Assembly (NCBI RefSeq): GCF_900104025.1
Contig: NZ_FNIQ01000001.1
Location: 186,001-250,000 of the forward strand
Direction: 5' to 3'
DNA: 64,000 nucleotides
Source: Geodermatophilus sp. DSM 45219
GTDB taxonomy: Bacteria > Actinomycetota > Actinomycetes > Mycobacteriales > Geodermatophilaceae
How positions within the stretch are numbered: position 1 is the first letter of the stretch; each line of letters starts with the position of its first letter. A program made the translations under genes and the position numbers. Below are positions 15,091-40,150 of the stretch, in pieces. The notes beneath the pieces are model-generated. The model saw nothing but the letters and a program-made list of their open reading frames with translations. It had not been told where the DNA came from and made no database searches.

Positions 15091-15097
15091 AACGCAC

Positions 15098-15125: not shown

Positions 15126-15174
15126 AAGGCAGTTTCAGAGAAACAAATGAACCGCTCCTCGCGACGGGGCCGAG

Positions 15175-15426
15175 CTACTCCTGTCCTGGCTCTATCTCTG
15201 GGGCCAGGCGGTCGCGGGCAGCGGAAAGCAACTCGTTGTAACGAGGATCGAAGCTCTCGACCATGGTCTTCTCTAGCGCGCCCGTGAGAAGAGCCAGAGC
15301 GCCGAGTTCACCTGGGTGCGTAAAGGGCACGCCTGCCCAGTCCTCCTCGTGGTGCTGCACCAGCCACTCGAACAGGACCAGCCCAACGTCACGAGACAGC
15401 TTGATCTTGTATTCGCCGGACGCCAC
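15175..15426 (-). CDS. Small conserved hypothetical protein, 83 residues
   Basis: From GTG 15426: VASGEYKIKLSRDVGLVLFE, then HPGELGALALLTGALEKTMV and a tail AARDRLAPEIEPGQE. The helical pattern and the phrase FDPRYNELL resemble small actinobacterial proteins annotated only as hypothetical. The same frame stays open into the IS element, but that upstream part is a shadow of the transposase. A TACGCT box 7 bases before the GTG suggests leaderless transcription. The hairpin repeat and the IS element lie directly upstream (15450 onward), so the insertion may have cut off earlier regulatory DNA. Confidence 0.65.
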   Translation of the reverse strand: MASGEYKIKLSRDVGLVLFEWLVQHHEEDWAGVPFTHPGELGALALLTGALEKTMVESFDPRYNELLSAARDRLAPEIEPGQE

Positions 15427-15455
15427 GGGTGGAAGCGTAGGGCGGTGCGCTGTCC

Positions 15456-15459
15456 CTAG
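15456..15459. repeat. CTAG target-site duplication, left
   Basis: CTAG here and at 16481-16484 flank the IS element. Removing the element and one CTAG restores an intact hairpin repeat (15450-15459 joined to 16485-16500). Confidence 0.8.
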
Positions 15460-16484: not shown

Positions 16485-16833
16485 GTGGGCCGCTATGGGC
16501 GAGCGAAGAGCTGGCCGCCCGCCCTACCCGCCAGGTGCCGACGCTTCTGCAGTCCTTTTCCAGTTCCCGTCTCGCTCGAGCTGCCGGCTGACTGGAGGAG
16601 AACTGGAGACTGCCGGCAACGATCGAGCGGCAGGTCCTCGGTCCCCACTGCGCCGGTGGAAGGGGTCACGTCCCGTGCGGCAGGCGCTCTCGCCGTCGGC
16701 GCACGACACAGCCGGCAGTGCTACGCCTGAGCCGACTGAGGTCCAAGTCAACGCCGCACGACGTCAGATCGCAGCACTACGTTGGCCACGCAGTGCCGCG
16801 GCGTGCAGACATCCGAGCGTGGAGGACAGGACG
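16485..16833. other. Leader region of the integrase gene, no gene seen
   Basis: About 350 bases. The first 16 bases are the right half of the interrupted hairpin repeat. CTGCCGGC occurs twice near 16581-16617 with an inverse copy GCCGGCAG near 16711. These may be integrase arm-type sites or chance. The frame of the integrase stays open through this region but has no coding character. Confidence 0.4.
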
Positions 16834-17988
16834 ATGGCCAGCATCCAGGACCGATGGCGTCGCAAGGACCCGGTCACCGGCCGTCTGGTGCCCACGAAGC
16901 TGGACGGCAAGGGTCTGCGCTACCGGCCCCAGTTCCGTGACCCGTCGGGCCGTCAGGTGATGAAGGCCTTCGCGCTCAAGCGGGACGCGCAGCGCTGGCT
17001 GGACGATCAGACCGCGCATATCGCGCGGGGCACGTACGTCGACCCCGGCGCCGGCCGTCTCACCTTCGCGGAGTTCTACGCCGACTGGTCCAACCGGCAG
17101 GTCTGGGCCCCGGGCACGGTCCTGGCCATGAAGCTCGCCTCGGACTCCGTGCCCTTCGCCGACGTGCCGCTGCGGTCGCTACGCCGATCCCACGTCGAGG
17201 GCTGGGTGAAGGGCATGGTGAGCCGCGGACTGGCGCCCGGGACCGTGCACACCCGGGTCAACAACGTGCGCGCCGTCATCCGCGGCGCCGTTGCGGACAA
17301 GCTGATCTCGAGCGATCCCAGCGTCGGTGTCGCACTCCCCCGGCGCCGGCGGGCCAGCGCCGCCATGACGCTGCCCACCGCGGCCCAGGTCGGCTCCGTC
17401 CTCGAGGCCGCCGAGGACGCTTTCCGCCCCTTCGTCGCGCTCTGCGCATTCGCCGGCCTCCGGCTTGGTGAGGCCGCCGGCCTCCGGGTCGAAGACGTCG
17501 ACTTCCTGCGCCGCACCCTGACCGTGGCACGCCAGGTGCAGCGTGCCGGCCGCGGTGCGGTCGAGGTCCGGTTGCCCAAGTACGGCAGCGAGCGGGTCGT
17601 CTTCCTCGCGTCCGGACTGGTCGAGATGCTGGCGGCGCACGTCGCCACGTACTGCCCGGACGGTGGCTGGCTGTTCACCGGAGCCGGCCAGGACCCGCCA
17701 CACCAGAACACCGTCGGCCACCGGTGGCGCACCGCCACTGCCGCTGCCGGGGTCACCGGGCTGCGACTCCACGACCTCCGGCACTTCTACGCCTCGGGCC
17801 TGATCGCCTCTGGCTGCGACGTCGTCACCGTGCAGCGGGCCCTCGGGCACGCGTCGGCGACGACCACCCTGTCGACCTACTCGCACCTTTGGCCGAGCGC
17901 CGAGGACCGCACGCGGGCGGCCGCGCAGACCTTGCTCGCAGAATCGTGTGGACTGGACGTGGACTGGCGGGGGTCAGTAGGCCGCTGA
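16834..17988 (+). CDS. int: Phage-type integrase (tyrosine recombinase) at island boundary
   Basis: 384 residues from ATG 16834, with GGAGG 8 bases upstream. It has an N-terminal AP2-like/arm-binding part (MASIQDRWRRKDPVTGRLVP ... DPSGRQVMKAFALKRDAQRW), a core-binding domain (FAEFYADWSNRQV ... GTVHTRVNNVRAVIRG) and a catalytic domain. Catalytic residues are Arg210 (GLRLGEAAG), Lys in LPKYGSERV, HDLRH (His313, Arg316), LGHASATTTLSTYSH (His339, Tyr349). All are present, so it looks active. It ends 20 bases from the 3' end of the core gene ychF, marking the right end of the accessory region. No tRNA is adjacent, so the attachment site is not obvious. Confidence 0.92.
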   Translation: MASIQDRWRRKDPVTGRLVPTKLDGKGLRYRPQFRDPSGRQVMKAFALKRDAQRWLDDQTAHIARGTYVDPGAGRLTFAEFYADWSNRQVWAPGTVLAMKLASDSVPFADVPLRSLRRSHVEGWVKGMVSRGLAPGTVHTRVNNVRAVIRGAVADKLISSDPSVGVALPRRRRASAAMTLPTAAQVGSVLEAAEDAFRPFVALCAFAGLRLGEAAGLRVEDVDFLRRTLTVARQVQRAGRGAVEVRLPKYGSERVVFLASGLVEMLAAHVATYCPDGGWLFTGAGQDPPHQNTVGHRWRTATAAAGVTGLRLHDLRHFYASGLIASGCDVVTVQRALGHASATTTLSTYSHLWPSAEDRTRAAAQTLLAESCGLDVDWRGSVGR

Positions 17989-26363: not shown

Positions 26364-27587
26364 ATGGTGTCCGAGGGACCGCGTCGGGTCGGGATGGCCG
26401 TGGTCGGCCTGGGTGGAGCGGTCGCCACGACCGCGGTGGCGGGGCTGGAGATGCTCCGGGCCGGGGGTGACACGGCAGGGCTGCCGCTGGCAGGACTGGA
26501 GGTCGGCGGCCGCCCCGCCGAGGAGGCGACCGGCCTGGCCGAGTACACCGACCTGGTGGTCGGCGGCTGGGACCTCGACGGCTCCGACCTGCGCAAGGCC
26601 GCGGAGCAGCACGGCGTCCTCGACCACCACCAGCTGGAGCAGGCCGGGCCATATCTGTCCTCGGTGACCCCGTGGGCGGCAGCCGGCGACGCCGACTTCT
26701 GCCGCAACGTGACCGGCGGCAACGTGGCGCTGGCCGAGACCCGCCGCGCCCAGGTCGATGCCGTCCGTGCCGACCTCGTCCGCTTCCGCGAAGAGCAGCA
26801 GCTCGACGGGCTCGTCCTGGTCAACCTGGCCTCGACCGAGCGCTGGCCGGACCCCGGAGCGCCCGTGCTGCAGACGATCGAGGCGTTCGAGGCCGGGCTG
26901 GACGCCGACGACCGCTCGATCACCCCCTCGATGGTCTACGCCTACGCCGCGATCGCCGAGGGTGTCGGCTACGTCAACTTCACGCCCTCGCTGGCCGCCG
27001 ACGTCCCGGCGCTGGTCGCCTTCGCGGAGAGCCGCGGCGTCCCGGTCGCCGGCAAGGACGGCAAGACCGGCCAGACGATGATGAAGACGGTGCTCGCGCC
27101 GGCCTTCCGCAGCCGCGCGCTGACCGTGGAGGGCTGGTACTCCACCAACATCCTGGGCAACCGCGACGGCCTGGCCCTCGAGGACCCGGACTCGCTGTCG
27201 AGCAAGCTGCAGACCAAGGGCAGCGTGCTGGACTCGATCCTCGGCTACCCGGTCGAGGACCACGTCGTGCGGATCGACTACTACCGCCCGCGCGGGGACC
27301 AGAAGGAGGCCTGGGACGCCATCGACCTGGTCGGCTTCCTCGGCCAGCGGATGCAGGTCAAGGTCGACTTCCAGTGCCGCGACTCGATCCTGGCCGCGCC
27401 GCTGGCCATCGAGCTGGCCCGGCTGACCGACCTGGCCCAGCAGCGCGGGGAGGGCGGCGTGCAGACCCAGCTCGGCTGGTTCTTCAAGGCGCCGATGTCC
27501 CCCGACGGCGCCACTCCCGAGCACGCCCTGCACCGGCAGGAGCGGGTGCTGCTCGACTGGGTCGCCGCGGGCGCGGCCGGCCGGTGA
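26364..27587 (+). CDS. Myo-inositol-phosphate synthase family protein
   Basis: 407 residues from ATG 26364, with GAGGGGGA 4-11 bases upstream. The NAD-binding start is MAVVGLGGAVATTAVAGLEM. The catalytic half has KDGKTGQTMMKTVLAPAF, GWYSTNILGNRDG, LQTKGSVLDSILGYP, VRIDYYRPRGDQKEAWDAID and CRDSILAAPLAIEL, which follow the eukaryote-like Ino1 order (GQTKMKSVL, NHLGNNDG, DSLLAAP). The enzyme would turn glucose 6-phosphate into inositol 3-phosphate, or act on a related sugar phosphate. It is the first gene of the nine-gene operon, overlapping the next by GTGA. The housekeeping Ino1 for phosphatidylinositol is probably elsewhere, so this looks like a pathway-specific copy. Confidence 0.88.
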   Translation: MVSEGPRRVGMAVVGLGGAVATTAVAGLEMLRAGGDTAGLPLAGLEVGGRPAEEATGLAEYTDLVVGGWDLDGSDLRKAAEQHGVLDHHQLEQAGPYLSSVTPWAAAGDADFCRNVTGGNVALAETRRAQVDAVRADLVRFREEQQLDGLVLVNLASTERWPDPGAPVLQTIEAFEAGLDADDRSITPSMVYAYAAIAEGVGYVNFTPSLAADVPALVAFAESRGVPVAGKDGKTGQTMMKTVLAPAFRSRALTVEGWYSTNILGNRDGLALEDPDSLSSKLQTKGSVLDSILGYPVEDHVVRIDYYRPRGDQKEAWDAIDLVGFLGQRMQVKVDFQCRDSILAAPLAIELARLTDLAQQRGEGGVQTQLGWFFKAPMSPDGATPEHALHRQERVLLDWVAAGAAGR

Positions 27588-28483
27588 CGGGCGGGTCCCC
27601 CGCCCTCGCCGCGCTCCGCCCGCTGCTGACCGAGGTCGGCGACGCCAAGCGGGTCCGCGTCGCCGGCCGCGCCGGGTCGCTGGCCGAGCAGTCCTTCGCC
27701 CGCGCCTGGGGGCGGCTGGTCGCCGGCGAGGACGCGACCGCGGTGGCGCTGTCGGAGACGGCGGCCGCCGTGGCCCGGGCCCGGCTGGCCGGCATCGACG
27801 GTGCGGTCCTGCGAACTGCGGGTCTCGGCGACGACGAGGCGCGGGGCGTGCTGCGGCGCGGGTTCGACGAGGTCGCCGGCCCGCTCGACGCCGGCCTGCG
27901 GCCGCGGCTGCGCGAGGCGCTGCCGCTCGCCGTCCTCGCGTCCGAGCCGCCGGCGCTGGCCGCCCGGCTCAACGCCCAGCCGCGCGCCGGGGCCACCGCA
28001 CCGGGCGTGGCGCGGGTCATCGTGGAGCCGCCGGAGAGCCACGGCGACCACTGCCTCACCGTGGCCGTGTACGGGGTGCTGGTCGCGCCGGTGTTCGGCG
28101 CCGACCCGGTCGCACCGTTCCTCGTCGGGCTGGCCCACCACCTGCACAACGTGGTGCTGCCCGACGCCGGGTTCGCCGGGGAGGTGCTGCTCGGCGCGGC
28201 CCTCGACCGGGTGCTGACGACGCTGGAGGAGCGCGAGCTGGCCGCCCTGCCGGGCGAGCTGGCGGAGCGGTTGCGCACGGTGCTGCGGCTGCGGGCGGAC
28301 GCCGGGGCGCCGGAGTCGCAGGCCTTCCACGCCGCCGACGTCCTCGACCGGGTGCTGCAGGTGCACCACCACGCGCGGGCCGCCGCGTTCACCGCCGCGC
28401 AGGCGCTGGACGACCTGGAGCTGGTGCACGCCGGGCCGGTGCAGGCGTTCCACCTCGACGTCCTGGCGGCGGCGGGGCTGTGA
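27584..28483 (+). CDS. Hypothetical protein with degenerate HD-domain pattern
   Basis: 299 residues from GTG 27584. The first ~130 residues are Ala/Arg-rich helices. The rest is helical with His clusters: ESHGDHCLTVAVYGVLV, FLVGLAHHLHNVVLPDAGF, FHAADVLDRVLQVHHHARA. Spacing resembles an HD-type metal phosphohydrolase (first His, HD pair, last Asp), but the HD pair reads HH. A metal-dependent hydrolase is possible, for example a phosphatase for the inositol phosphate made by the preceding enzyme. No named family is recognised. Both ends overlap neighbours by 4 bases, so it belongs firmly to the operon. Confidence 0.7.
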   Translation: MTGGSPALAALRPLLTEVGDAKRVRVAGRAGSLAEQSFARAWGRLVAGEDATAVALSETAAAVARARLAGIDGAVLRTAGLGDDEARGVLRRGFDEVAGPLDAGLRPRLREALPLAVLASEPPALAARLNAQPRAGATAPGVARVIVEPPESHGDHCLTVAVYGVLVAPVFGADPVAPFLVGLAHHLHNVVLPDAGFAGEVLLGAALDRVLTTLEERELAALPGELAERLRTVLRLRADAGAPESQAFHAADVLDRVLQVHHHARAAAFTAAQALDDLELVHAGPVQAFHLDVLAAAGL

Positions 28484-29505
28484 GCGTGGTGGCACCGGCC
28501 GTCCCGGTGGTGGACGGCATCCCGTTCGCCCGGGCCGGCCGCGACGGGCTGCGCGCGGAGGTGGCCGGCCTGCTGGCGCACGACGAGGTCGACCGCGCCC
28601 GGGTGCTGCTGCTGGCCGACGCCGACGACTGGTGGACCGAGCCGCCGCCGCCGCCCGAGCAGCTGGCCCGCGTGCCGGCGGCGGAGACGCTGCGCGAGGC
28701 GATGGGGCTGCTCGGCATGGGCCGGGTGGCCGACTACTTCGCGCACCGGTGGTCCGACCCCACCCACCTGGCCGGGCTGGCGCTGCTGCAGCAGCACTGG
28801 CCGGGGAGCAGGCCCGTGGTGGACGTCGCCTGCGGGATCGGCACCCACCTGCGCGAGCTGGCCCGCCGCGGCTGCACCGACCTGGTCGGCGTCGACGTCG
28901 TCTGGGCCAAGCTGTGGCTGGCCCGCCGCTTCGTCTGCTCCGCGGCCCGCTACGTGTGCGCCGACGTGACCGCCGTCCCCGGTCCCGCAGTTCGGCAGCC
29001 GGCCTACGTGCTGTGCCACGACGCCTTCTACTTCCTGCGCGACAAGCCGGCCGCGGCCGCGGCGATGCGCGCGCTGGCTGGGGACGGCGGCACCGTCGTC
29101 GTCGGGCACGCGCACGTCGCCGACCCGCACGGCGAGCCGCTGACCCCGGAGGGCTACGCCGCGGTGCTCGGCACCGACCTGCTCTACGACGACGCCGAGC
29201 TCACCGCGTCGCTGCTCGCCGGCCGCCCGCCCCGGCCGGCCCCGGCCGGGGAGCTGCACGACAGCGAGGCGGTCGGGCTCGTCGCGGGCGACCCGTGCCC
29301 GCCGGCACCGGCCGACCTCGGCGAGCCGCTGCCGCCGCTGCGGCCGAACCCGCTGTACACCGACGGCGCGCTGCGCTGGCCCAGCGAGCGCTACGCGACC
29401 GAGTACGGCCCCCGCTCGGGGTACCTGCCCCCGCGGTGGCCGGACCCGCTGCCGGCCGACGCCGCCCGCCGCCGGCTCCTCGTCGACCTGCCGGAGGCGT
29501 GGTGA
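28480..29505 (+). CDS. Class I SAM-dependent methyltransferase
   Basis: 341 residues from GTG 28480. An N-terminal region of ~100 residues (VDGIPFARAGRDGLRAEVAG LLAHDEVD) precedes the Rossmann fold. Motif I is VVDVACGIGTHLRELARRG, the acidic end of strand 2 is LVGVDVVWAKLWLARR and motif IV-like is YVLCHDAFYFL. The C-terminal ~110 residues (LPPLRPNPLYTDGALRWPSE, YGPRSGYLPPRWP) are unusual and Pro-rich. It would methylate a pathway intermediate. It overlaps genes on both sides by 4 bases. Confidence 0.85.
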   Translation: MSVVAPAVPVVDGIPFARAGRDGLRAEVAGLLAHDEVDRARVLLLADADDWWTEPPPPPEQLARVPAAETLREAMGLLGMGRVADYFAHRWSDPTHLAGLALLQQHWPGSRPVVDVACGIGTHLRELARRGCTDLVGVDVVWAKLWLARRFVCSAARYVCADVTAVPGPAVRQPAYVLCHDAFYFLRDKPAAAAAMRALAGDGGTVVVGHAHVADPHGEPLTPEGYAAVLGTDLLYDDAELTASLLAGRPPRPAPAGELHDSEAVGLVAGDPCPPAPADLGEPLPPLRPNPLYTDGALRWPSERYATEYGPRSGYLPPRWPDPLPADAARRRLLVDLPEAW

Positions 29506-30506
29506 GCGCGCGAGGTGCCCCGGTGACCCCGGTGGGCTGGGGCGTGGCCGGCTGCGGCTGGGTCGCCCGCGACCACGCGCTGCCCGCGCTCGCCACGACG
29601 CCGGGCGCCCGGGTGGTCGCGCTGCACGACCGGGACCCCGCCGCCACGGCCCGGGTGGACGTCGGCGCGCCCGCGCACACCGACCTCGGTGCCTTCCTCG
29701 CCACGCCGGGCCTGGACGCGGTCTACGTCGCCGTCCCCAACGCCGCGCACCGGGAGGTGGTCGAGGCGGCCGCGGCCGCGGGCAAGGCGGTGCTGTGCGA
29801 GAAGCCGCTGGCGGCCGACGTCGCCGACGCCCGCGCCATGGTGACCGCCGCCCGCGACGCCGGCGTCCTGCTCGGGACGGCGTACGACCAGCGCTGGCAC
29901 CCCGCCCACGTGCGGCTGCGCGAGCTGGTGCCCGAGTTCGGCACGATCACCGCGCTGCGGATCGTCTACTGCTGCTGGCTGCCCGCCGACTGGACGCCGG
30001 ACGGCCGGCCGCACGACAACTGGCGGGTCGACCGGGCCCGGGCCGGCGGCGGCGCCGCGATCGACCTGGCCCCGCACGGGCTGGACCTGGCCGGCGTGCT
30101 GCTCGGCGAGGACGTCGTCGAGCTGCGCGCCCTGCTGCAGCGCCGGGTGCAGGACTACCCGGTGGACGACGGCGCGCTGCTGTCCGGGCGCACCGCGGGC
30201 GGCGTGCTGGTCGACCTGCACGTCGCGTTCAACACCCCCGACGCGCTTGCCCGCCGCCGGCTCGAGGTCGTCGGCACCCGCGGGATGGCCGTCGCCGTCG
30301 ACACGATGGGCCAGACGGCGGGCGGCTCGCTCACGCTGTTCCGGCCCGACCCGGTCGACGTCCGCTTCGCCGGGGACTCCCCCTTCGCCGCGCAGTTCGC
30401 CGCCTTCACCGCCGCCGTGGCGGGGACGTCGTCCTGGCCGTACGACGCCGCCCGCGACCTGGCGCTGCACCGCCTGCTCCTCACCGCCCTGGGAGACGCG
30501 AGATGA
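29502..30506 (+). CDS. Gfo/Idh/MocA-family oxidoreductase
   Basis: 334 residues from GTG 29502. The N-terminal NAD(P)-binding motif is GWGVAGCGWVARDHALPAL. LDAVYVAVPNAAHREVVEAA and the conserved CEKPLA (catalytic Lys region) follow. The C-terminal domain has GGGAAIDLAPHGLDLAGVLL with the conserved D/H pair. Family members oxidise or reduce sugars and inositols, including inositol 2-dehydrogenases (IolG). Next to an inositol-phosphate synthase and a TIM-barrel isomerase, an inosose-forming step is plausible. Confidence 0.9.
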   Translation: MSARGAPVTPVGWGVAGCGWVARDHALPALATTPGARVVALHDRDPAATARVDVGAPAHTDLGAFLATPGLDAVYVAVPNAAHREVVEAAAAAGKAVLCEKPLAADVADARAMVTAARDAGVLLGTAYDQRWHPAHVRLRELVPEFGTITALRIVYCCWLPADWTPDGRPHDNWRVDRARAGGGAAIDLAPHGLDLAGVLLGEDVVELRALLQRRVQDYPVDDGALLSGRTAGGVLVDLHVAFNTPDALARRRLEVVGTRGMAVAVDTMGQTAGGSLTLFRPDPVDVRFAGDSPFAAQFAAFTAAVAGTSSWPYDAARDLALHRLLLTALGDAR

Positions 30507-31375
30507 CCAACCCCTACCGCGGGCTGCTGCCGGACCTGCCCGCGTTCGCCTGCACCAACTGCGGGCACTGGCAGCGCTGGCCGGCGCCCGGGCCGCAGGT
30601 GTGCCCGGTGTGCGCCGACGTCCGCAACGCCCTGCCCGAGGACGGCTTCGAGTTCGTCACTCCTGCGCAGGCCGACGCGATGGTGACCGGCTTCTGCCGG
30701 CCGACCGCCGTCGCGGGCGTGACCGAGTTCGGCACCGAGCCGCGCTTCGGGCTGGACAGCCGGGGGTGGGTGATCGAGTCCGACGCCGGGCTGGTCGGCT
30801 TCGAGTGCGCCCCCTGGTACACCGCCGACATGCTGGCCCAGCTGCGCCGGATGGCCGAGGCGAAGGGCGGGTTCGAGATCCTGGCCTCCAGCCACGTGCA
30901 CGGCTACGGCGCGCTGTGGCAGCTGCAGCAGGAGCTCCAGCCGCGGACGGTCTGCGTCGGCGTCCGGGACCTGGAGTGGACCAAGGCCTTCCGGGTCACC
31001 TGGCCCGCGGACGACGAGCTGGAGCTGGCCCCCGACCTCACCCTGCACCGCACCGGCGGGCACTTCCCCGGGCACTCGGTGCTGCACGACCGCCGCCGCG
31101 GCGTGCTGTTCTGCGGCGACTCGCTCAAGGTCGACCTGGACGACGCCGGCGAGCCGGTGGCGCTGAGCGCGCACAAGGCCTTCCACGCGCAGATCCCGCT
31201 CTCGCACGGCGAGCTGCGCGAGTACCTCACGGTCGTCGGCGCGCTGGAGTTCGACGCCGTGGCGACGCCGTTCGAGCTGGTCCGCGGGGTGACCACCGAC
31301 CACGTCGTCCACCTGGTGCAGCGGCTGCTGTCGGGCCCGCCCGACGCCGCCCCCGTCGCGCTGGAGGAGCTGTGA
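30503..31375 (+). CDS. Zinc-ribbon metallo-beta-lactamase-fold hydrolase
   Basis: 290 residues from ATG 30503 (ATGA overlap). The first ~45 residues hold a zinc ribbon: CTNCGHW and CPVCADVRNAL. The metallo-beta-lactamase part has LASSHVHGYGALWQLQQEL (H-x-H-G form), GGHFPGHSVLHDR (His), LFCGDSLKVDL (Asp) and a late His near SAHKAFHAQ. The usual HxHxDH is reduced to HVHGYG, so the metal site may be single or altered. The substrate is not evident. The ribbon suggests protein or carrier contact. It sits immediately upstream of the YcaO gene. Confidence 0.85.
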   Translation: MTNPYRGLLPDLPAFACTNCGHWQRWPAPGPQVCPVCADVRNALPEDGFEFVTPAQADAMVTGFCRPTAVAGVTEFGTEPRFGLDSRGWVIESDAGLVGFECAPWYTADMLAQLRRMAEAKGGFEILASSHVHGYGALWQLQQELQPRTVCVGVRDLEWTKAFRVTWPADDELELAPDLTLHRTGGHFPGHSVLHDRRRGVLFCGDSLKVDLDDAGEPVALSAHKAFHAQIPLSHGELREYLTVVGALEFDAVATPFELVRGVTTDHVVHLVQRLLSGPPDAAPVALEEL

Positions 31376-32835
31376 ACGCCCCGGCCACGACCGCCTCGCA
31401 GCGCTACCTGGACTCGTTCCCCACGCCCGTCGACGAGTTCGCGATCGAGGGCCTCGACGTGCTCGACGTGCCGCTGCACAGCGCCGTCCTCCCCTCCTCG
31501 CCGGAGCACCCCGGCGGCAGCGGCCTGGGCTACGGCGCCACCCGCGAGGAGGCGCGCACCGGGGCGCTCGGCGAGATGGCCGAGATGGCGCTGTCGCTGC
31601 GCGCGCACCAGGGGGTCCGGCGTGAGCAGGGCTCCTACGCGGAGATGGCCCGGCGGCACGGCCGCGACCGGGTCGCCGACCCGCGCACCCTCTGCCTGGA
31701 GGCGGGCAGCGCGTACGACGACGACCGGCCGCTGCAGTGGCTCCCCATGGCCCGGCTGCGGGACGGCGAGACGGTGCTGGTCCCGGCCGAGCTGGTGGCC
31801 TCGGCGCCCGACGACCTGCCCGGGACCCCGCCGCCCGGGGGCTGGCTGACCACGGTGGTCACCAACGGGCAGGGCGCGGACTTCGACGCCGAGCGCGCCG
31901 TCGCGCACGCGCTGCTGGAGGTGCTGCAGCGCGACGGCAACGCCACCTCCTTCCGGGCGATGGACCGCGGCGTCGTGGTCGACCTCGCCGGCCTGCGGGA
32001 CCCCGACGCCCTGGCGCTGCTCGACCGGCTCGACACCGCGGGCATCGACGTCGTGGTCAAGCTGGCCGCCACCGAGTTCGGCGTCGTCGACGTCTACGCC
32101 GTCGGCTGCTCCCGCGACCTGTCCGAGCCGGTGCCGGTGATGGCGACCGCGTGCGGCGAGGCGGCGCACCCCGACCGCGACACCGCCGTCCGCAAGGCCC
32201 TGCACGAGTTCGCCTCGGCGCGCAGCCGCAAGGCGTTCATGCACGGCCCGTTCGAGGTCGTCCTGCCGGCCACGCCCCCGGGCTACCTGGACTCCTGGCG
32301 CGGCGGGCACCCGCCCGAGCGGCTGGTCGAGGAGGACCGCGCGCTGGAGGCGATGCTGGCCTGGACCCGGATGGGCACCGGCGCGCTGGTCGACCTGCTG
32401 CAGGGCACCGTCCTCTCGCGCCGGGAGACCGTCGCGCTGACCGACCTGCCGGCGTGGTCCGGCGACGACCTGCACGGCACGGTCACCGGCGCGCTGCACG
32501 CGGCCGGGCACGACGTGCTGGTGGAGCTGCAGCCCTCCGCCGGCGACGCCGTGGCGGCCAAGGTGCTGGTGCCGGGGCTGGAGGTCGAGACGATGTCCTA
32601 CGGGCGGATCGGCGAGCGCGGGGTGCGGCGGCTCCTCGATCGCGGCGACCCGCTGGTCGCCGTCGGCGCCGACCCGGGCGGCTGGTCGCGGGTGCACCTG
32701 ACCGCGGACGCCGTGGAGCGCCTCGGCGGGCCGGGCTGGTTCGACCGCGCCGGCGCCGACCGGCGGGTGGGCGCGCTCTACGCCCTCTACCGCGAGCCCG
32801 GCCGGCACACGGTGGCGGAGGTGCTCTCCCGATGA
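31372..32835 (+). CDS. YcaO-family ATP-dependent enzyme
   Basis: 487 residues from GTG 31372. ATP/Mg-binding elements are visible: GATREEARTGALGEMAEMAL, then TNGQGADFDAERAVAHALLE followed by VLQRDGNA, the YcaO core equivalent of SNG..A...EA...ALLE..ERD, and VRKALHEFASARSRKAF. YcaO enzymes activate an amide carbonyl with ATP to make azolines, thioamides or amidines. There is no fused E1/ocin-ThiF domain, no adjacent TfuA or dehydrogenase and no small precursor gene in the operon. The substrate may therefore be a small molecule or another protein, not a classic RiPP. Confidence 0.88.
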   Translation: MNAPATTASQRYLDSFPTPVDEFAIEGLDVLDVPLHSAVLPSSPEHPGGSGLGYGATREEARTGALGEMAEMALSLRAHQGVRREQGSYAEMARRHGRDRVADPRTLCLEAGSAYDDDRPLQWLPMARLRDGETVLVPAELVASAPDDLPGTPPPGGWLTTVVTNGQGADFDAERAVAHALLEVLQRDGNATSFRAMDRGVVVDLAGLRDPDALALLDRLDTAGIDVVVKLAATEFGVVDVYAVGCSRDLSEPVPVMATACGEAAHPDRDTAVRKALHEFASARSRKAFMHGPFEVVLPATPPGYLDSWRGGHPPERLVEEDRALEAMLAWTRMGTGALVDLLQGTVLSRRETVALTDLPAWSGDDLHGTVTGALHAAGHDVLVELQPSAGDAVAAKVLVPGLEVETMSYGRIGERGVRRLLDRGDPLVAVGADPGGWSRVHLTADAVERLGGPGWFDRAGADRRVGALYALYREPGRHTVAEVLSR

Positions 32836-33659
32836 GGTACGCGTACAACACCAACGGGCTGACCTCGCACCGGCTGTCCGACGCGCTGCCCCTCCTCGCC
32901 GACACCGGGTACGCCGGCGTCGCGCTGACGCTGGACGTCGTCCACCTCGACCCGTTCGCGCCCGACGCGTTCGCCCAGGCCGAGAAGACGCGGGCGCGCT
33001 GCGACGAGCTGGGCCTCGGCGTCGTCGTCGAGACCGGCGCCCGCTACCTGCTCGACCCGCGGGTCAAGCACGAGCCGACCCTCGTCACCCCGGACGCCGA
33101 GGGCCGGGCGCGGCGGCTGGCCTACCTGCGGCTGGCCTGCGACCTGGCCGAGGTGCTGGGCGCGGAGGCGGTCAGCTTCTGGGCCGGCGTGCCCCGGCCG
33201 GGGGTGGACCGCGAGGAAGCGTGGGGCTGGGTGGTCGACGGCGTGCGCGCGCTGGTCGACAGCCACGGCGGGCGGTCCTGCGCCCTGGCCGTCGAGCCCG
33301 AGCCCGGGATGCTCGTCGAGGACTGCGACGGCTGGGCCCGGCTGGCCGCCGACGTCCCCGGCACCACCCTCGCGCTGGACACCGGCCACTGCGTCGTCGC
33401 CGGGGCGTACGAGCCCGAGGAGGCGGTGAGGGCCTTCGCCCCGCACCTGGGCACGGTCGCCGTCGAGGGCATGCGGCGCGGCGTGCACGACCACCTGCCC
33501 CTCGACGAGGGGGACGTCGACCTGCCCGCCGTGCTGCGGGCGCTGCGGGACGTCGGCTACGACCGGCTGGTCACCCTCGAGCTCTCCCGGGACGGGCACC
33601 GGGCGCACGAGATGGTGCCGCGGGCGATGGCGACGCTGAGGGAGGCCGAGGACTCGTGA
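32832..33659 (+). CDS. TIM-barrel sugar-phosphate isomerase/epimerase (AP endonuclease family 2 fold)
   Basis: 275 residues from ATG 32832. The fold shows FNTNGL-type start (YAYNTNGLTSHRLSDALPLL), LAVEPEPGMLVED with the metal Glu, LALDTGHCVVAG with Asp/His ligands, HDHLPLDEGDVDLPAVLRAL and LVTLELSRDGH with the last Glu. These match xylose-isomerase-like TIM barrels, including IolE/IolI-type inosose enzymes. It could isomerise the keto-inositol or sugar made by the oxidoreductase two genes upstream. It overlaps both neighbours by 4 bases. Confidence 0.88.
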   Translation: MRYAYNTNGLTSHRLSDALPLLADTGYAGVALTLDVVHLDPFAPDAFAQAEKTRARCDELGLGVVVETGARYLLDPRVKHEPTLVTPDAEGRARRLAYLRLACDLAEVLGAEAVSFWAGVPRPGVDREEAWGWVVDGVRALVDSHGGRSCALAVEPEPGMLVEDCDGWARLAADVPGTTLALDTGHCVVAGAYEPEEAVRAFAPHLGTVAVEGMRRGVHDHLPLDEGDVDLPAVLRALRDVGYDRLVTLELSRDGHRAHEMVPRAMATLREAEDS

Positions 33660-34864
33660 GGACCTGCTTCGTCAGCCGGCGCTACTGGCCCGCGGTCAGC
33701 GGGATGAGCGTCTACGCGGAGAACCTGCTGCGCGAGCTGGTCGCCCTGGGCCACGAGGTCACGCTGGTCAGCCAGTACCGCGACGACGAGGCCGGCACCC
33801 GCGTCTACGGCGGCGGCCCGCCCCCGCCCGACCGGGTGCCCGCCGGCGTCGAGGTCGTGGCGCTGCCCAGCCGCGGCGAGACCGTCGTCCCCGCGGACTG
33901 GGAGGGCGACATCGACGAGATCGTGCGCACCGTCGTCGGCCTGCACGCCGAGCGGCCCTTCGACGTGCTGCACGCCCAGTACGGCTACCCGCCGGGCCTG
34001 GCGGTGCTGGCCGCGGCGCGGCAGACCGGGCTGCCGGCCGTGGTGAGCATCCAGGGCGGCGACGGGCACTGGGTGGGCACCTGCTGCAGCACGCACGCCG
34101 AGGCGATGCGGGCGGTCGTCGACACGTCGTCCGCGGTGCTGATCGGCAGCGCCAGCTTCCGCGACGAGGTGGTCGGCAACCTCGGCAGCGACCCGGCGCG
34201 CTTCACGATCGTCCCCGGCGCCACCGACACCCGGCGCTTCACACCGGCGGAGCGGCCGCTGGGCGCGCTGCGCGAGCCGCCGGTGCTGCTGTTCCACGGC
34301 CGGGTCGACCGCCGCAAGGGCGTGCTCGACCTGCTCGAGGCGCTGCCCGACGGCGTCCGGCTGGTCGTCTCCGGCATCGGCCCGGACCTCGACGAGGCGA
34401 GGGCCCGCGCCGACGAGCGGACGACGTTCCTCGGCTACGTCCCGCCCGACCGGGCACCCGAGGTCTACCGCTCGGCCGACGTGTTCGTCAGCCCCACCTA
34501 CAGCGAGGGGTTCAGCAACACCCTGCTGGAGGCGATGGCCAGCGGGCTGCCGACGGTGAGCACCGACAGCGTCGGCGTCGTGGACTGCCTGCGGCACGAG
34601 GAGAACGGGCTGCTGCACACCCCGGGCGACGTCGCCGGGCTGCGGACGGCGCTGGAGCGGCTGCTGGACGACGCCGCGCTGCGGGAGCGGCTGGCGACCA
34701 CCGCGCTGGAGGAGGTGCGGCGGCTGTACTCCTGGCCGGTGCTGGCCGCCTCGATCGACGGCGTCTACCGCGAGGTGGCCGGCACGACGCCGTCCGCCGG
34801 CTGGTCGATGCCGTCGGGCGTGGACCCGTCCTGCCGGTTCCGGTCGGCGGCGCACCTGCTGTGA
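33656..34864 (+). CDS. GT4-family glycosyltransferase
   Basis: 402 residues from GTG 33656. The N-terminal acceptor domain has SRRYWPAVSGMSVYAENLLR, a GT4 start with the Gly-rich loop, and FDVLHAQYGYPPGLA. The donor domain has LLFHGRVDRRKGVLDLLEAL and the EX7E-type block SPTYSEGFSNTLLEAMASGL PTV. Members such as MshA join a GlcNAc donor to inositol 3-phosphate. With an inositol-phosphate synthase first and a PIG-L deacetylase last, an MshA/MshB-like pair is suggested. Its specific donor cannot be read from the sequence. Confidence 0.9.
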   Translation: MRTCFVSRRYWPAVSGMSVYAENLLRELVALGHEVTLVSQYRDDEAGTRVYGGGPPPPDRVPAGVEVVALPSRGETVVPADWEGDIDEIVRTVVGLHAERPFDVLHAQYGYPPGLAVLAAARQTGLPAVVSIQGGDGHWVGTCCSTHAEAMRAVVDTSSAVLIGSASFRDEVVGNLGSDPARFTIVPGATDTRRFTPAERPLGALREPPVLLFHGRVDRRKGVLDLLEALPDGVRLVVSGIGPDLDEARARADERTTFLGYVPPDRAPEVYRSADVFVSPTYSEGFSNTLLEAMASGLPTVSTDSVGVVDCLRHEENGLLHTPGDVAGLRTALERLLDDAALRERLATTALEEVRRLYSWPVLAASIDGVYREVAGTTPSAGWSMPSGVDPSCRFRSAAHLL

Positions 34865-34919
34865 GAACGACGCGCGAGGGAGCATCGCAGGGAGCGCCAG
34901 CGACCGAGGAGCGGACTGA
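34865..34919 (+). repeat. GA-rich intergenic repeat before the PIG-L gene
   Basis: Contains GAGCATCGCAGGGAGCG and GACCGAGGAGCGGAC. A related stretch lies at 45260-45320 (GAGCATCGCAGCGAGGAAC, CGAACCGAGGAC) before xseB. The 3' part GAGGAG is at a good distance to serve as the ribosome site of GTG 34920. Confidence 0.5.
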
Positions 34920-35654
34920 GTGCGGAGTCGAACGGTGGGCGCTGTGAAGGTGCTCGCGGTCAGCCCGCACCTCGACGACGCCGCGTTCTCCGTGGGCGGC
35001 ACCCTCGCCTCGCTGGCGGCGGCCGGGCACCAGGTCACCGTGGCCACCTGCTTCACGGCGAGCGTCCCCGACCCGGCCGGTTTCGCGCTGGCCTGCCAGC
35101 TGGACAAGGGGCTGCCCGCCGACGTCGACTACCTGGCCCTGCGCCGCGCGGAGGACACCGCCGCGATGGCCGAGCTGGGCGCCACCCGGGTGTACCTGGG
35201 GCTGCCCGAGGCGCCGCACCGCGGCTACACCAGCGCGGCCGACCTGTTCGCCGGCGTCCACGAGGGGGACGACGTCTGGCGCTCCCTCGTCGCTGCCCTG
35301 GACGGGTACGACGCCGACCTGTGGCTCGCCCCCCAGGCGCTCGGCGGCCACGTCGACCACCTGCAGGTGCTGCGCGCCGTGGCCGCGGTCGAGCGGCCGG
35401 TGCTCTGGTGGCGGGACAGCCCGTACGTGCTGCGCGACCCGGGCGCCGTGCCCGGGCCCGACCTCCCCAGCGGGCTGGCCGAGGTGGCCCTGCCGCAGGA
35501 CCTCCACCGGCGGGCCGACGCCTGCGCCTGCTACACCACCCAGCTCGGCTTCCAGTTCGGCGGCCCGGACGCGATGCGCGCGGCGCTGGCCGGCCTGCCC
35601 GAGGTGCTGATGGCCGGGGAGCGGGCGCGGGAGGTCGTCTCGGCGCTCGGCTGA
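34920..35654 (+). CDS. PIG-L family deacetylase
   Basis: 244 residues from GTG 34920 (GAGGAG 8 bases upstream; GTG 34944 is an alternative). The zinc motif PHLDDAAFSVGGTLA (HxDD) and the second motif GGHVDHLQVLRA (HxxH) are both present, as in MshB, BshB and other N-acetylglucosaminyl deacetylases. RRAEDTAAMAELGATRVYLG is also typical. It would deacetylate the amino-sugar glycoside made by the GT4 enzyme. It is separated from that gene by a 55-base GA-rich repeat but lies on the same strand with no terminator between. Confidence 0.9.
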   Translation: MRSRTVGAVKVLAVSPHLDDAAFSVGGTLASLAAAGHQVTVATCFTASVPDPAGFALACQLDKGLPADVDYLALRRAEDTAAMAELGATRVYLGLPEAPHRGYTSAADLFAGVHEGDDVWRSLVAALDGYDADLWLAPQALGGHVDHLQVLRAVAAVERPVLWWRDSPYVLRDPGAVPGPDLPSGLAEVALPQDLHRRADACACYTTQLGFQFGGPDAMRAALAGLPEVLMAGERAREVVSALG

Positions 35655-36864: not shown

Positions 36865-36941
36865 CCCCCTCCACGGCGGTGTCCGGAAACCGCCAGTCCC
36901 CGGCCTCTGACGCTGTCATGCTCGACGGCGTGACACCGCTG

Positions 36942-38417
36942 ATGGACACCGAGCGCTGCTACCGCGCGGTCGCCGGCCGGGACGCCCGGTTCGACGGCTG
37001 GTTCGTCACCGCGGTCGCCACCACCGGCATCTACTGCCGCCCCTCCTGCCCGGCCCGCACGCCGCTGCCGCACAACGTCTCGTTCTTCTCCACCGCGGCC
37101 GCCGCCCAGGGCGCCGGCTACCGGGCCTGCCGCCGCTGCCGGCCCGACGCGGTCCCCGGCTCACCGGAGTGGGACGTCCGCGCCGACGTCGTCGCCCGCG
37201 CGGTCCGGCTCATCGGGGACGGCGAGGTCGAGCGCTCCGGCGTCCCCGGGCTGGCCGCGCGGCTGGGCTACTCCGAGCGCCAGCTGCACCGGCTGCTGGT
37301 CGCCGAGCTCGGCGTGGGGCCGCTCGCGCTGGCCCGGGCGCAGCGCGCGCAGACCGCCCGGCTGCTGATCGAGACCACCGCCCTGCCGATGGCCGACGTC
37401 GCCTTCGCCGCGGGGTTCGCCAGCATCCGGCAGTTCAACGACACCGTCCGCGAGGTGTTCGCCGCGACCCCCACCGAGCTGCGCCGCGGCGCACCGGCCG
37501 GCCCGCCGGGCACACCGGGCCGGCTGACGCTGCGGCTGGCCGCCCGCGCCCCGTACGAGGCGGCCGAGGTGCTGCTGTTCCTGGGCGTGCACGCCGTCCC
37601 CGGGCTGGAGGAGTGGGACGGGACGACCTTCTCCCGGGTGCTCGACCTGCCGCACGGCCCCGGCGTCGTGCACCTCTCCCCCGCCCCCGACGGCGGCCCC
37701 GCGGTGACCGCCCGGCTGCAGCTCGCCGCCCTGCGCGACCTGGGGACGGCGGTGGCCCGCTGCCGCCGGGTGCTGGACCTGGACGCCGACCCGGTCGCGG
37801 TGGACGGCGTCCTCGGTGCCGACCCCGCCCTGGCCGCCCTGGTGGCCGCCGCGCCCGGCCGCCGGGTGCCGGCCTCCCCCGACGCCGACGAGCTCGCCGT
37901 CCGGGCGGTCCTCGGGCAGCAGGTCTCCCTGGCCGGCGCCCGCACGCTCACCGCCCGCGTGCTGCGCGCCGCCGGCGCCCCGCTGCCGGAGCCGGTCGGC
38001 ACGCTGACCCACGCCTTCCCGCGCCCGGCCGCGCTGGCCGACGCCGACCTGACCGCCGTGGGTCTGACCGGGGCGCGCCGGCGCACCGTGCACGCGCTCG
38101 CCGAGGCGCTGGCGTCGGGCGCGGTGACCCTGGACCCCGGCGCCGACCGCGAGGAGGCCGGCCGCGCGCTGCGCGCCGTCCCCGGGATCGGCCCGTGGAC
38201 CACCGCGCTGGTGGCGCTGCGCGGCCTGGGCGACCCCGACGTGTGGTTGCCCGGCGACCTGGCGTTGCGCCGCTCCCTGGCCACCCTCGGCAGCTCCGAC
38301 GCCGACGCCGCCACCCGCTGGCGGCCGTGGCGTTCCTACGCCGTGATGCACCTGTGGGCACTCGCCGTGCCCTCCCTGTCCACCCGCCCAGTCCAGCCCG
38401 ATCGGAGCGCCTCATGA
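36942..38417 (+). CDS. alkA: Ada/AlkA fusion: methylation-sensing activator with 3-methyladenine DNA glycosylase
   Basis: 491 residues from ATG 36942 (ATG 36918 and GTG 36930 are possible earlier starts). The domains in order are: Ada zinc domain with the methyl-accepting Cys in GIYCRPSCPAR and CRRCRPD; an AraC-type HTH (GVPGLAARLGYSERQLHRLL ... MADVAFAAGFASIRQFNDTV); an AlkA N-terminal domain; and an HhH-GPD glycosylase domain with VRAVLGQQVSLAGARTL, AVPGIGPWTTALVALRGLGD and the catalytic Asp region DVWLPGDLAL. The protein senses methylphosphotriesters, activates repair genes and excises alkylated bases. ogt overlaps its stop by 4 bases, forming an alkylation-repair operon. Confidence 0.94.
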   Translation: MDTERCYRAVAGRDARFDGWFVTAVATTGIYCRPSCPARTPLPHNVSFFSTAAAAQGAGYRACRRCRPDAVPGSPEWDVRADVVARAVRLIGDGEVERSGVPGLAARLGYSERQLHRLLVAELGVGPLALARAQRAQTARLLIETTALPMADVAFAAGFASIRQFNDTVREVFAATPTELRRGAPAGPPGTPGRLTLRLAARAPYEAAEVLLFLGVHAVPGLEEWDGTTFSRVLDLPHGPGVVHLSPAPDGGPAVTARLQLAALRDLGTAVARCRRVLDLDADPVAVDGVLGADPALAALVAAAPGRRVPASPDADELAVRAVLGQQVSLAGARTLTARVLRAAGAPLPEPVGTLTHAFPRPAALADADLTAVGLTGARRRTVHALAEALASGAVTLDPGADREEAGRALRAVPGIGPWTTALVALRGLGDPDVWLPGDLALRRSLATLGSSDADAATRWRPWRSYAVMHLWALAVPSLSTRPVQPDRSAS

Positions 38418-38935
38418 CCCCGCGACCCGCCCGCTCCGCCTGCATCGACACCCCACCGGGGCCGTTCACCGTCGTGGTGGGTCCCGACGGCGCCGTCCTC
38501 GCCAGCGGCTGGACCGACGACGTCGCCGACCTGCTGCCCGTGGTGCACCGCGCGCTGCGGCCGGCCTGGGTCGAGCCGGTCGAGCACCTGCCCGTGCTCG
38601 ACGCCGTGGCCGCCTTCGTCGCCGGTGACGTCACCGCGATCGACGACGTCCCGGTGCGCCAGCGGTCGGGGCCCTTCCTGGAGGACGCCTGGGAGGTGCT
38701 GCGCACCGTCCCGGCCGGCGCGCCGGACAGCTACGCGGCCTTCGCGGCGCGCTGCGGCCGCCCGGCCGCGGTCCGCGCGGCCGCCAACGCGTGCGCCCGC
38801 AACGCCGCGGCGCTGTTCGTGCCCTGCCACCGGGTGCTGGGCTCCGACGGCGGGCTCGGCGGCTTCCGCTGGGGGACGCCGGTCAAGCGCTGGCTGCTCG
38901 ACCACGAGGCGGCGCACACCCCCGTCCCGGCTTAG
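38414..38935 (+). CDS. ogt: Methylated-DNA--[protein]-cysteine S-methyltransferase
   Basis: 173 residues from ATG 38414 (ATGA overlap with alkA). The active-site block is VPCHRVLGSDGGLGGFRWG, with the acceptor Cys in PCHR. A helix-turn-helix DNA-binding region YAAFAARCGRPAAVRAAANA precedes it. Length is normal for Ogt. It removes O6-methyl or larger alkyl groups from guanine by irreversible transfer to Cys. A perfect 10-bp hairpin follows the stop. Confidence 0.95.
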   Translation: MTPRPARSACIDTPPGPFTVVVGPDGAVLASGWTDDVADLLPVVHRALRPAWVEPVEHLPVLDAVAAFVAGDVTAIDDVPVRQRSGPFLEDAWEVLRTVPAGAPDSYAAFAARCGRPAAVRAAANACARNAAALFVPCHRVLGSDGGLGGFRWGTPVKRWLLDHEAAHTPVPA

Positions 38936-38940
38936 GCCCG

Positions 38941-38970
38941 CAGGTGCCTTCCGCGCGCGAAAGGCACCTG
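38941..38970 (+). terminator. Hairpin terminator after ogt
   Basis: CAGGTGCCTT (38941-38950) pairs exactly with AAGGCACCTG (38961-38970), loop CCGCGCGCGA. It begins 5 bases after the ogt stop. No U-tract. Confidence 0.75.
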
Positions 38971-39001
38971 CTGGCCGGGGCACGGGCGGGGCTCCCGGGA
39001 A

Positions 39002-40150
39002 GTGTCGGTCCGGTCGGGCAGGCTCCCGACCGTGGACGCCGCCTCGCTGCTCACCGGTCTGGTCCTCGGCGCGCTGCTGGCCACCGCGGTCACCCTGGGG
39101 GTGGTCGCGCTGGTGTCGCGCCGCCGGCCCGCGGACGACGGCCTGGAGCCGGTGCACGAGTCGCTGGACCACCTGCACCGGCTGCTGGCCGGCATCGAGC
39201 GCGACCGCGCCACCGCCCACGGCGAGCTGCGCGAGCAGATGGGCACCGTGGGGCAGACCTCGGCGATGCTCCGGCAGGAGACCGCCGCGCTGGTCACCGC
39301 GCTGCGCACCCCGCACGTCCGCGGCCGCTGGGGCGAGGTGCAGCTGCGCCGGGTGGTGGAGGTCGCCGGGCTGCTGGAGCACTGCGACTTCGTCGAGCAG
39401 CCGTCGGGCACCAACGACGCCGGCGCGGGCGTGCGGCCGGACCTCGTGGTGACCCTCGCCGACGGTCGCCAGGTGGTGGTCGACGCCAAGGTGCCGTTCA
39501 CCGGCTACATCGAGGCGGTGCAGGCCGAGGACGTCGCGGTCCGCGCCGAGCGGGTGGTCGCGCACGCCCGCCAGCTGCGCACCCACGTCGACGCCCTCTC
39601 CGCCCGGCGCTACCCGACCGCGTTCCGGCCCGCGGCCCCGTTCACGGTGCTCTTCGTCCCCTCCGACGGGTTCCTGACCACCGCGCTGGAGGCCGAACCG
39701 GGCCTGCTGGAGTACGGCTTCGCGCGTGACATCGTGCTGGCCACCCCCAGCACGTTGCTGGCGCTGCTGCGCACCGTCGCCTACTCGTGGCGGCAGGAGC
39801 GGCTGGCACGCGACGCCGACCAGGTGCTCGAGGTCGGCCGCCGGCTGCACGCTCGCCTCAGCACGCTGTCCGGCCACCTCACCCGGCTGGGCTCGGCGCT
39901 GTCCTCGACGCTCACCCGCTACAACGAGACGGTCGGCTCCTACGAGAGCTCGGTGCTGGTCGCCGCCCGCCGCTTCGACGACCTCGGGGTCGCCGAGACG
40001 GCCGTCCCCACCCCGGCGGTGGTGGAGGCGACGGTGCGCACCCTGCGCCCGGCGGAGCCGCCGGCACCCCCCGGTCAGCCGCTGGCGGCCGAGCTGTCCC
40101 GCCCGCATGTCCCGCCGGCGCCCGTGGAGCGCGACGGCACCACCGGCTGA
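39002..40150 (+). CDS. rmuC: DNA recombination protein RmuC
   Basis: 382 residues from GTG 39002 (GTG 39032 is an alternative just before the membrane segment). An N-terminal membrane segment (LLTGLVLGALLATAVTLGVV) is followed by a helical coiled region and the RmuC nuclease-like domain: HVRGRWGEVQLRRVVEVAGL, RPDLVVTLADGRQVVVDAKV (PD-(D/E)xK type core), LFVPSDGFLTTALEAEPGLL. RmuC limits inversions and genome rearrangement; the mechanism is not fully known. The Pro-rich tail (AEPPAPPGQPL) is typical of actinobacterial versions. Confidence 0.92.
   Translation: MSVRSGRLPTVDAASLLTGLVLGALLATAVTLGVVALVSRRRPADDGLEPVHESLDHLHRLLAGIERDRATAHGELREQMGTVGQTSAMLRQETAALVTALRTPHVRGRWGEVQLRRVVEVAGLLEHCDFVEQPSGTNDAGAGVRPDLVVTLADGRQVVVDAKVPFTGYIEAVQAEDVAVRAERVVAHARQLRTHVDALSARRYPTAFRPAAPFTVLFVPSDGFLTTALEAEPGLLEYGFARDIVLATPSTLLALLRTVAYSWRQERLARDADQVLEVGRRLHARLSTLSGHLTRLGSALSSTLTRYNETVGSYESSVLVAARRFDDLGVAETAVPTPAVVEATVRTLRPAEPPAPPGQPLAAELSRPHVPPAPVERDGTTG

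Follow-up and report, generated by a model that had tools for sequence, protein, structure and literature searches.

Enzymes of the YcaO family are known so far mainly for altering peptides and proteins. Many characterised bacterial YcaOs act on peptides, and the passages of a 2021 paper that bear on Actinobacteria report no evidence there for roles outside ribosomally synthesised and post-translationally modified peptides (RiPPs) (PMC8442711); for the YcaO ItfB, passages of a further paper report amidine formation with ammonia as the nitrogen source (PMC11002830). Mycothiol synthesis uses a different set of families: an inositol-phosphate synthase, a glycosyltransferase of family 4 (GT4) and a PIG-L deacetylase. 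Here, we describe a nine-gene cassette that holds a YcaO together with these three families, at positions 26364-35654 of a 64,000-nt stretch of Geodermatophilus sp. DSM 45219 (GCF_900104025.1, contig NZ_FNIQ01000001.1, 186,001-250,000; hereafter, the window). The cassette is real and conserved, and the non-RiPP YcaO pathway that it would encode is apparently undescribed. We give a probability of roughly 60% to a non-RiPP YcaO pathway leading to an aminoglycosyl cyclitol. With relatives of its second gene in 234 stretches of a species-level collection, the cassette is a concrete and widely distributed candidate for a non-RiPP YcaO.

A conserved nine-gene cassette

The cassette consists of the following genes:

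26364..27587, + strand: gene 1, Ino1-type inositol-3-phosphate synthase, 407 aa (PF07994, E 1.1e-63; PF01658, E 2e-34)
27584..28483, + strand: gene 2, HD-like metal protein without a curated family, 299 aa (from structure and profile comparison)
28480..29505, + strand: gene 3, S-adenosylmethionine-dependent methyltransferase, 341 aa (PF13649, E 1.1e-8)
29502..30506, + strand: gene 4, Gfo/Idh/MocA oxidoreductase, 334 aa (PF01408, E 7.5e-26)
30503..31375, + strand: gene 5, zinc-ribbon metallo-beta-lactamase-fold protein (MBL), 290 aa (PF00753, Lactamase_B, E 3.2e-6)
31372..32835, + strand: gene 6, YcaO, 487 aa (PF02624, E 1.1e-50, 173.3 bits against a cut-off of 25.7)
32832..33659, + strand: gene 7, TIM-barrel protein like sugar epimerases, isomerases and dehydratases, 275 aa (PF01261, AP_endonuc_2, E 1.5e-33)
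33656..34864, + strand: gene 8, GT4 glycosyltransferase, 402 aa (PF13692, E 1.6e-31)
34920..35654 (start likelier 34944), + strand: gene 9, PIG-L family N-deacetylase, 244 aa as read (PF02585, E 4.1e-15)

We scanned the named genomes of the species-level collection with an alignment of gene 2 and obtained 234 relatives, the best 80 of which underlie all locus counts given here. These 80 loci come from three phyla and carry 28 group labels; 25 are from Geodermatophilaceae and two from one metagenome-assembled genome (MAG). Taking a run to be the contiguous genes around gene 2 on the same strand with gaps below 1.5 kb, we found that the run follows the window's gene order in 80 of 80 loci and contains all nine genes in 43, representing 15 of the 28 labels. 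Carriers include Geodermatophilus, Blastococcus, Modestobacter, Actinomycetospora, Pseudonocardia, Streptomyces, Kineococcus and Rubrobacter, as well as Skermanella, Acidisphaera, Methylobacterium (M. aquaticum among its species), Methylorubrum, Sphingomonas, Parvularcula and Hymenobacter. No tenth conserved gene emerged from a neighbour survey that reached a median of 8.8 kb upstream and 2.7 kb downstream of the run: called families outside the nine span at most 6 of 28 labels.

Among the incomplete runs, 17 lack the MBL alone, four from Actinomycetospora contain only the first six genes, two from Hymenobacter lack the methyltransferase, and two from Kineococcus lack Ino1 and the TIM barrel, one of them ending where Ino1 would sit. 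The remaining 12 comprise one locus without Ino1 (Goekera) and 11 at the end of a stretch; two of these 11 also have an inner gap (L122 without YcaO, L139 without the methyltransferase), and a third, Methylobacterium L142, lacks the MBL as well. An inverted cassette fragment lies outside the run on one MAG contig (L148).

These results show that the nine genes are one conserved unit with a fixed order across three phyla. An earlier note, made from the window's sequence alone, had treated them as a single unit and had held that a gene order not conserved in any relative would count against it; the 80 loci settle this in its favour. Its description of eight overlapping genes, seven four-base junctions, a 55-base spacer and a PIG-L gene proved exact on a coordinate check, and the family order it gave is borne out by Pfam for eight of the nine genes, gene 2 having no Pfam match. 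Rechecked against the window sequence, each of the nine open reading frames (ORFs) is in frame with a single terminal stop. The seven overlaps linking genes 1 to 8 read, in order, GTGA, GTGA, GTGA, ATGA, GTGA, ATGA and GTGA, and the 55-base gap precedes the PIG-L ORF at 34920, for which separate gene calling makes 34944 the more likely start. On their own such overlaps are unremarkable because they are common in the window (10 of 36 other same-strand gene pairs overlap likewise), and we rejected them as stand-alone evidence for a unit. A chance origin of the cassette is unlikely because the gene order is kept across phyla.

Protein families and the proposed pathway

Gene 6 has a YcaO domain, and its AlphaFold2 model (pLDDT 92.1) has the predicted YcaO fold; Foldseek ranks heterocyclase 4v1v first by E value and aligns the Methanocaldococcus jannaschii YcaO 6peu with a TM score (target) of 0.78. 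Among solved chains the protein has a single match at E<=0.001, MJ1094 of M. jannaschii, and it is itself the genome's sole PF02624 match at that threshold. Residues E68, E71, N165, E183, Q186, R187, E263, E279 and R284 are invariant in 27 aligned rows, and we take the acidic and arginine positions to be ATP/Mg ligands. The preceding gene encodes the MBL, in which H131, H133, H187, D206 and H224 are invariant (29 rows); all 29 aligned members match PF00753 at E<=0.1, and the protein lacks the full HxHxDH motif.

The best solved relative of gene 1 is the inositol-3-phosphate synthase 7nwr (E 1.2e-84), a five-membered-cyclitol-phosphate synthase being far weaker (3.6e-12), and the motifs GKDGKTG and PRGD-KEAWD do not vary across 24 length-filtered rows, each from a different group label; by these comparisons gene 1 is nearest to a true inositol-3-phosphate synthase. 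The solved relatives of the GT4 at E<=1e-12 are headed by 6kih, followed by PimA and by 3c48/3c4q, presumably MshA, and its EX7E motif is invariant (26 rows). For PIG-L, the teicoplanin pseudoaglycone deacetylase is the nearest solved relative (3.7e-14), and the motifs SPHLDD and H-x-D-H are invariant (23 rows). The TIM barrel is nearest to the ribulose-5-phosphate 3-epimerase UlaE (1.5e-10) and IolE (1e-9) in a profile search that also matched IolI, with E155, D183, H186, E212, H219 and E250 invariant (26 rows), and the methyltransferase is nearest to UbiG-type O-methyltransferases (E 2e-7). The oxidoreductase, with invariant EKP and D-x-x-x-H (27 rows), is nearest to 1,5-anhydro-D-fructose reductase (2e-60), with inositol 2-dehydrogenase lower (7e-27), and its nearest solved relatives include glucose-fructose oxidoreductase besides 1,5-anhydrofructose reductase. 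The ketoinositol product proposed in the earlier note is therefore unsupported.

The window copy of gene 2 found no match in Pfam or NCBIfam searches, and among its relatives 3 of 36 match YqeK weakly (best E 0.016). A confident AlphaFold2 model (pLDDT 92.6) yielded nothing at E<=0.001 in Foldseek, the top row being HDDC2 (E 0.18, probability 1.0, TM score (target) 0.62, rmsd 12.7), and a profile search matched the HD protein 2cqz at E 5e-4 with the metal motif aligned. H156, H185, H186, N189, D194 and D252 are invariant in 41 rows. Set against the HD pattern, H156, H185, D194 and D252 are retained and a Glu position is Asn, and the His-Asp metal doublet of HD phosphohydrolases is absent, being HH (185-186) in all 41 rows. 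Since HH replaces the doublet invariantly, the metal site looks altered and not simply degenerate, a small correction to the earlier label of a degenerate HD protein. We regard gene 2 as a candidate cyclitol-phosphate phosphatase or altered metalloenzyme.

The best explanation of the gene set is that the cassette makes a small, polar, non-peptide metabolite, and we count in its favor that the candidate catalytic motifs are retained across the aligned relatives. In the proposed route, Ino1 would form inositol-3-phosphate, from which the HD-like protein would remove the phosphate, unless it acts otherwise at its altered metal site. The GT4 would add N-acetylglucosamine and PIG-L would free the amine, as for the glucosamine (GlcN)-inositol of mycothiol, while the oxidoreductase and TIM barrel could oxidize and then epimerize or dehydrate the cyclitol or sugar. 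Using ATP, YcaO would activate an amide or vinylogous acid at its carbonyl oxygen and, together with the MBL, couple an amine to give an amidine or enaminone; the methyltransferase would cap the product. The specific C-N bond chemistry assigned to YcaO and MBL is tentative, and we rate it somewhat below an even chance.

Beyond the cassette, Ada-AlkA, O6-methylguanine methyltransferase and RmuC genes lie downstream at window positions 36918-40150, and a phage-integrase-family gene lies at 16819-17988.

Search for RiPP partners

None of the nine proteins matched a TfuA, E1-like or azoline-dehydrogenase family in Pfam, and no neighbour beyond the nine is widely shared (at most 6 of 28 labels). 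We screened 636 small ORFs within 2.5 kb of the 80 loci. Uncorrected BLAST linked 74 of them over 17 labels and, at E 1e-6, retained one set over 10 labels; of three ORFs inspected from that set, two lie opposite the Ino1 start on the antisense strand. Once composition was corrected for, the widest set covered 3 labels. Within 2.5 kb of the 80 loci we found no conserved precursor peptide, RiPP recognition element (RRE) domains not having been searched, and on the corrected screen we rejected a RiPP with a nearby precursor. The YcaO scores 81.6 bits against the 219.25 of the SagD-type cyclodehydratase family (TIGR03604), its second NCBIfam match, the McrA thioamidation family, is below cut-off, and no PxPxP tail was seen by eye in 19 aligned YcaOs. 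Because no RiPP partner family occurs among the nine and no conserved small ORF lies nearby, a non-RiPP YcaO pathway is supported. This agrees with the earlier note, which had read the locus as such a pathway, had listed precursor, E1-like protein, TfuA and azoline dehydrogenase as missing, and had named a nearby precursor gene as a finding that would overturn it.

The presence of a YcaO may nevertheless lead genome miners to misfile the cassette as an azole peptide cluster. Passages of an Acetobacteraceae survey file a YcaO cluster of Roseomonas mucosa as an azole peptide (PMC8776678); that cluster may or may not be this cassette.

Displaced genes and a probable YcaO-MBL pairing

Eighteen loci have the run from oxidoreductase to YcaO without an MBL, and we searched seven of their genomes. 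All seven encode an MBL at another site (E 9e-105 or better), where different genes surround it. MBL and YcaO form one ORF in two of the three Hymenobacter loci, and they are separate ORFs on the H. volaticus plasmid. Because the two are fused in two Hymenobacter genomes, the MBL is a likely physical partner of YcaO. One Methylobacterium genome also encodes a second, more distant zinc-ribbon MBL (L163:1450-2283, E 1e-37), a hint that the family is wider. In the H. volaticus plasmid copy the oxidoreductase and the GT4 are each split into two ORFs (L029:10072-11120, 14341-15581), which may reflect decay of the copy or errors in its sequencing.

The last three genes can likewise lie apart from the run: TIM barrel, GT4 and PIG-L sit together elsewhere in three of four Actinomycetospora genomes, one of which has both modules on a single contig of 261,393 bases, about 16 kb from each other. 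The fourth genome, a MAG, gave no match to them. The methyltransferase was matched in 3 of 3 other genomes searched (E<=1e-15) and in neither of the two Hymenobacter genomes searched; because it was not found in those two, it appears to be a dispensable tailoring step.

Distribution and solo YcaOs

Gene 2 is patchily distributed, occurring in 7 of 396 genomes phylum-wide and in 5 of 120 in the genus of a Hymenobacter locus. Of the 249 genomes of the order, 25 have a YcaO relative; gene 2 is present in 14, all of them among the 25. A plasmid search with the YcaO returned four records (one Roseomonas, one Hymenobacter, two Methylobacterium), and the annotated Roseomonas plasmid carries all nine genes in the same order. 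Given this patchy spread, the plasmid copies and the three phyla, the cassette has apparently spread by horizontal transfer. In a midpoint-rooted YcaO tree without outgroup, Hymenobacter joins Rubrobacter (support 100/98), with three of the four joined rows (two Hymenobacter, one Rubrobacter) flagged for odd composition.

YcaOs also occur without gene 2. In ten such loci (L037-L042, L045-L048; YcaO near position 9,000-11,500), eight of these solo YcaOs lie near a sugar ABC transporter-like set, made up of genes clustering with a sugar-binding protein (one member matches PF01547) and of two more shared genes, which we read as permeases from position and size. An uncharacterised protein family lies near the solo YcaO in nine of the ten; a NodB-like identity for a protein beside these YcaOs was dropped, as it had no Pfam match. 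Nine tree rows are labelled solo: seven group in a single clade among the cassette YcaOs, another sits by itself on a long branch, and the last is the YcaO that lies outside the run in the MAG L034/L102. Solo YcaOs may have been taken over for another use, or may complete a precursor that is imported.

A possible role at exposed surfaces

We infer that the product protects surface-living bacteria against light or drying. Methylobamine is polar and absorbs near avobenzone. The carriers belong largely to genera known from leaves, rock, desert soil, lichens and air, many of these sunlit or dry places, a pattern for which no control was counted. Passages of two papers state that Methylobacterium contains UVA-absorbing compounds including methylobamine (PMC9664959, PMC12573535). 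On the strength of these habitats and of the UVA absorber reported from Methylobacterium, a photoprotectant is plausible; that the product itself screens UV is doubtful. A narrower and quite unlikely version has the product as an inositol-derived, amino-sugar-linked UVA sunscreen, convergent with mycosporines, in which YcaO-MBL instead of an ATP-grasp enzyme attaches the amine. If true, bacteria would here make a natural product with a YcaO that works on a sugar and not a peptide, the methylobamine of Methylobacterium would be explained, and the solo YcaOs, most of which have a sugar ABC transporter nearby, could complete a precursor imported from producers.

Genes related to DNA damage sometimes lie near the cassette. 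One family, of which the member tested matches uracil-DNA glycosylase, is represented immediately downstream in 18 Methylobacterium/Methylorubrum loci (e.g. L108:17655-18284) and upstream of Ino1 in two Skermanella loci (L104, L111), and two spore photoproduct lyase genes lie near the cassette on the plasmid of Roseomonas haemaphysalidis (L027:17747-19868). These neighbours, like the habitats, are correlations for which no control was counted. In 18 of 18 aligned Methylobacterium/Methylorubrum loci a GGAAC box lies upstream of Ino1, at about 100 bases where measured; the -10 element there is CAGTT or CATTT against the CGTT of EcfG promoters, so that the box gives only a hint of a link to EcfG.

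Weighing the alternatives

The likeness of Ino1, GT4 and PIG-L to mycothiol steps raises the question of whether the cassette belongs to that pathway. The GT4 scores 69.2 bits against the MshA cut-off of 462.5 (TIGR03449), PIG-L 19.3 against the MshB cut-off of 224.35 (TIGR03445), and gene 1 42.8 against the mycothiol-type Ino1 cut-off of 638 (TIGR03450). MshC has no match among the nine and is found above cut-off (645.7 bits) elsewhere in the genome on contig C11; a second Ino1 also lies outside the cassette in this genome. On these grounds we rejected the mycothiol pathway itself: the resemblance on which the earlier note had drawn holds, membership of the three mycothiol families does not, and its remark that an MshC-type ligase is absent from the unit is correct. 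A mycothiol-like redox buffer or protective pseudodisaccharide is a different matter. Here YcaO would convert the amine of a GlcN-cyclitol to a thioamide or thiol group, for a role in redox or desiccation and not in light. The solved match to MJ1094, the second-ranking McrA family and the dry habitats of many carriers (judged from their names) are consistent with it, but none of the nine matched a cysteine-ligase, TfuA or sulfur-carrier family, and the genome already has MshC while the cassette proteins stay below the mycothiol cut-offs; we consider it unlikely. Improbable, in our view, is an envelope glycolipid or capsule module, in which GT4 and PIG-L would act on an inositol lipid as in the synthesis of phosphatidylinositol mannosides (PIM) or glycosylphosphatidylinositol (GPI). 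The solved relatives of the GT4 include PimA, and genes of one BLAST family with an annotated Roseomonas MdoH glucosyltransferase lie near the cassette in five alphaproteobacterial labels. Against this, none of the nine matched a phosphatidyltransferase, acyltransferase or transporter family, in a comparison that did not extend to membrane segments, and no such lipid or transport neighbour is widely shared around the cassette. Finally, the YcaO could modify a distantly encoded peptide or a conserved protein, with the sugar genes decorating the product. The peptide substrates of many characterised YcaOs and the strong Foldseek matches to peptide heterocyclases speak for such an undetected RiPP; the corrected small-ORF sets, the lack of a tenth conserved gene, the low SagD score and the missing PxPxP tail speak against it and make it highly improbable. 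We also rejected anti-phage defence, as PADLOC matched one methyltransferase only.

Several observations weigh against a single non-RiPP YcaO pathway to an aminoglycosyl cyclitol, or against its proposed spread and role. One MAG (L034/L102) has a YcaO about 7 kb from Ino1, and in another of its contigs, L122, the run lacks YcaO. Within the locus, the one place checked for it, Ino1 is missing from Goekera and from one Kineococcus; the TIM barrel is missing from two Kineococcus. A correlation among the pairwise identities of all nine proteins (r 0.62-0.89, up to 17 representatives) counts in favor of the pathway, but it has no species control, and vertical descent or joint transfer could both give it. 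The oxidoreductase has no specific likeness to inositol dehydrogenases, and the proposed chemistry is read from that of the families. In the order, 11 of 25 YcaO genomes have YcaO without gene 2 (10 of the 11 loci were read), so YcaOs of this type are not exclusive to the pathway. Three of the four plasmid records are typed non-mobilizable. A strict EcfG stress promoter occurs in 0 of 33 alphaproteobacterial loci versus 11 of 155 background genes, a relaxed one in 9 of 33 versus 27 of 155.

Comparison with known systems

Among the papers listed in searches of the open-licence literature none described this gene set, and none gave a named pathway of the kind that the earlier note had said would refute it. 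The cassette, which probably builds a sugar-linked inositol compound, offers a testable candidate substrate class for YcaO, cyclitol glycosides, together with an unusual zinc-ribbon MBL partner. It also gives genetic access to what may be a protectant in bacteria of leaves, rock, deserts and air.

Several described systems share part of its logic. Inositol catabolism (IolG, IolE, IolI) pairs an oxidoreductase and a TIM barrel of the same superfamilies, whereas in the cassette the oxidoreductase is nearest to anhydrofructose reductase and glycosyl-transfer and YcaO genes lie alongside. Kasugamycin likewise combines inositol, an amino sugar and an amidine, but its amidine is not known to be made by a YcaO; we set it apart by description and not by sequence. 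The mycosporine-like amino acids are alike by hypothesis only, in a methylated, amine-substituted cyclohexenone chromophore made with ATP; they start from another cyclitol, and the Mys families (dehydroquinate-synthase-like, ATP-grasp, nonribosomal-peptide-synthetase-like) are unmatched among the nine.

The two closest systems each match one half of the cassette. Mycothiol shares the inositol-phosphate synthase, GT4 and PIG-L deacetylase, which would by analogy give a GlcN-cyclitol core; the cassette differs in six extra genes (HD-like protein, methyltransferase, oxidoreductase, MBL, YcaO and TIM barrel) and in having no MshC. The YcaO pathways to azolines, amidines and thioamides, in RiPPs and McrA, share the YcaO domain and fold and a YcaO that stands alone with a separate or fused partner. 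In contrast to these pathways, the YcaO partner here would be a zinc-ribbon MBL, no precursor is seen nearby, and the neighbours are sugar enzymes.

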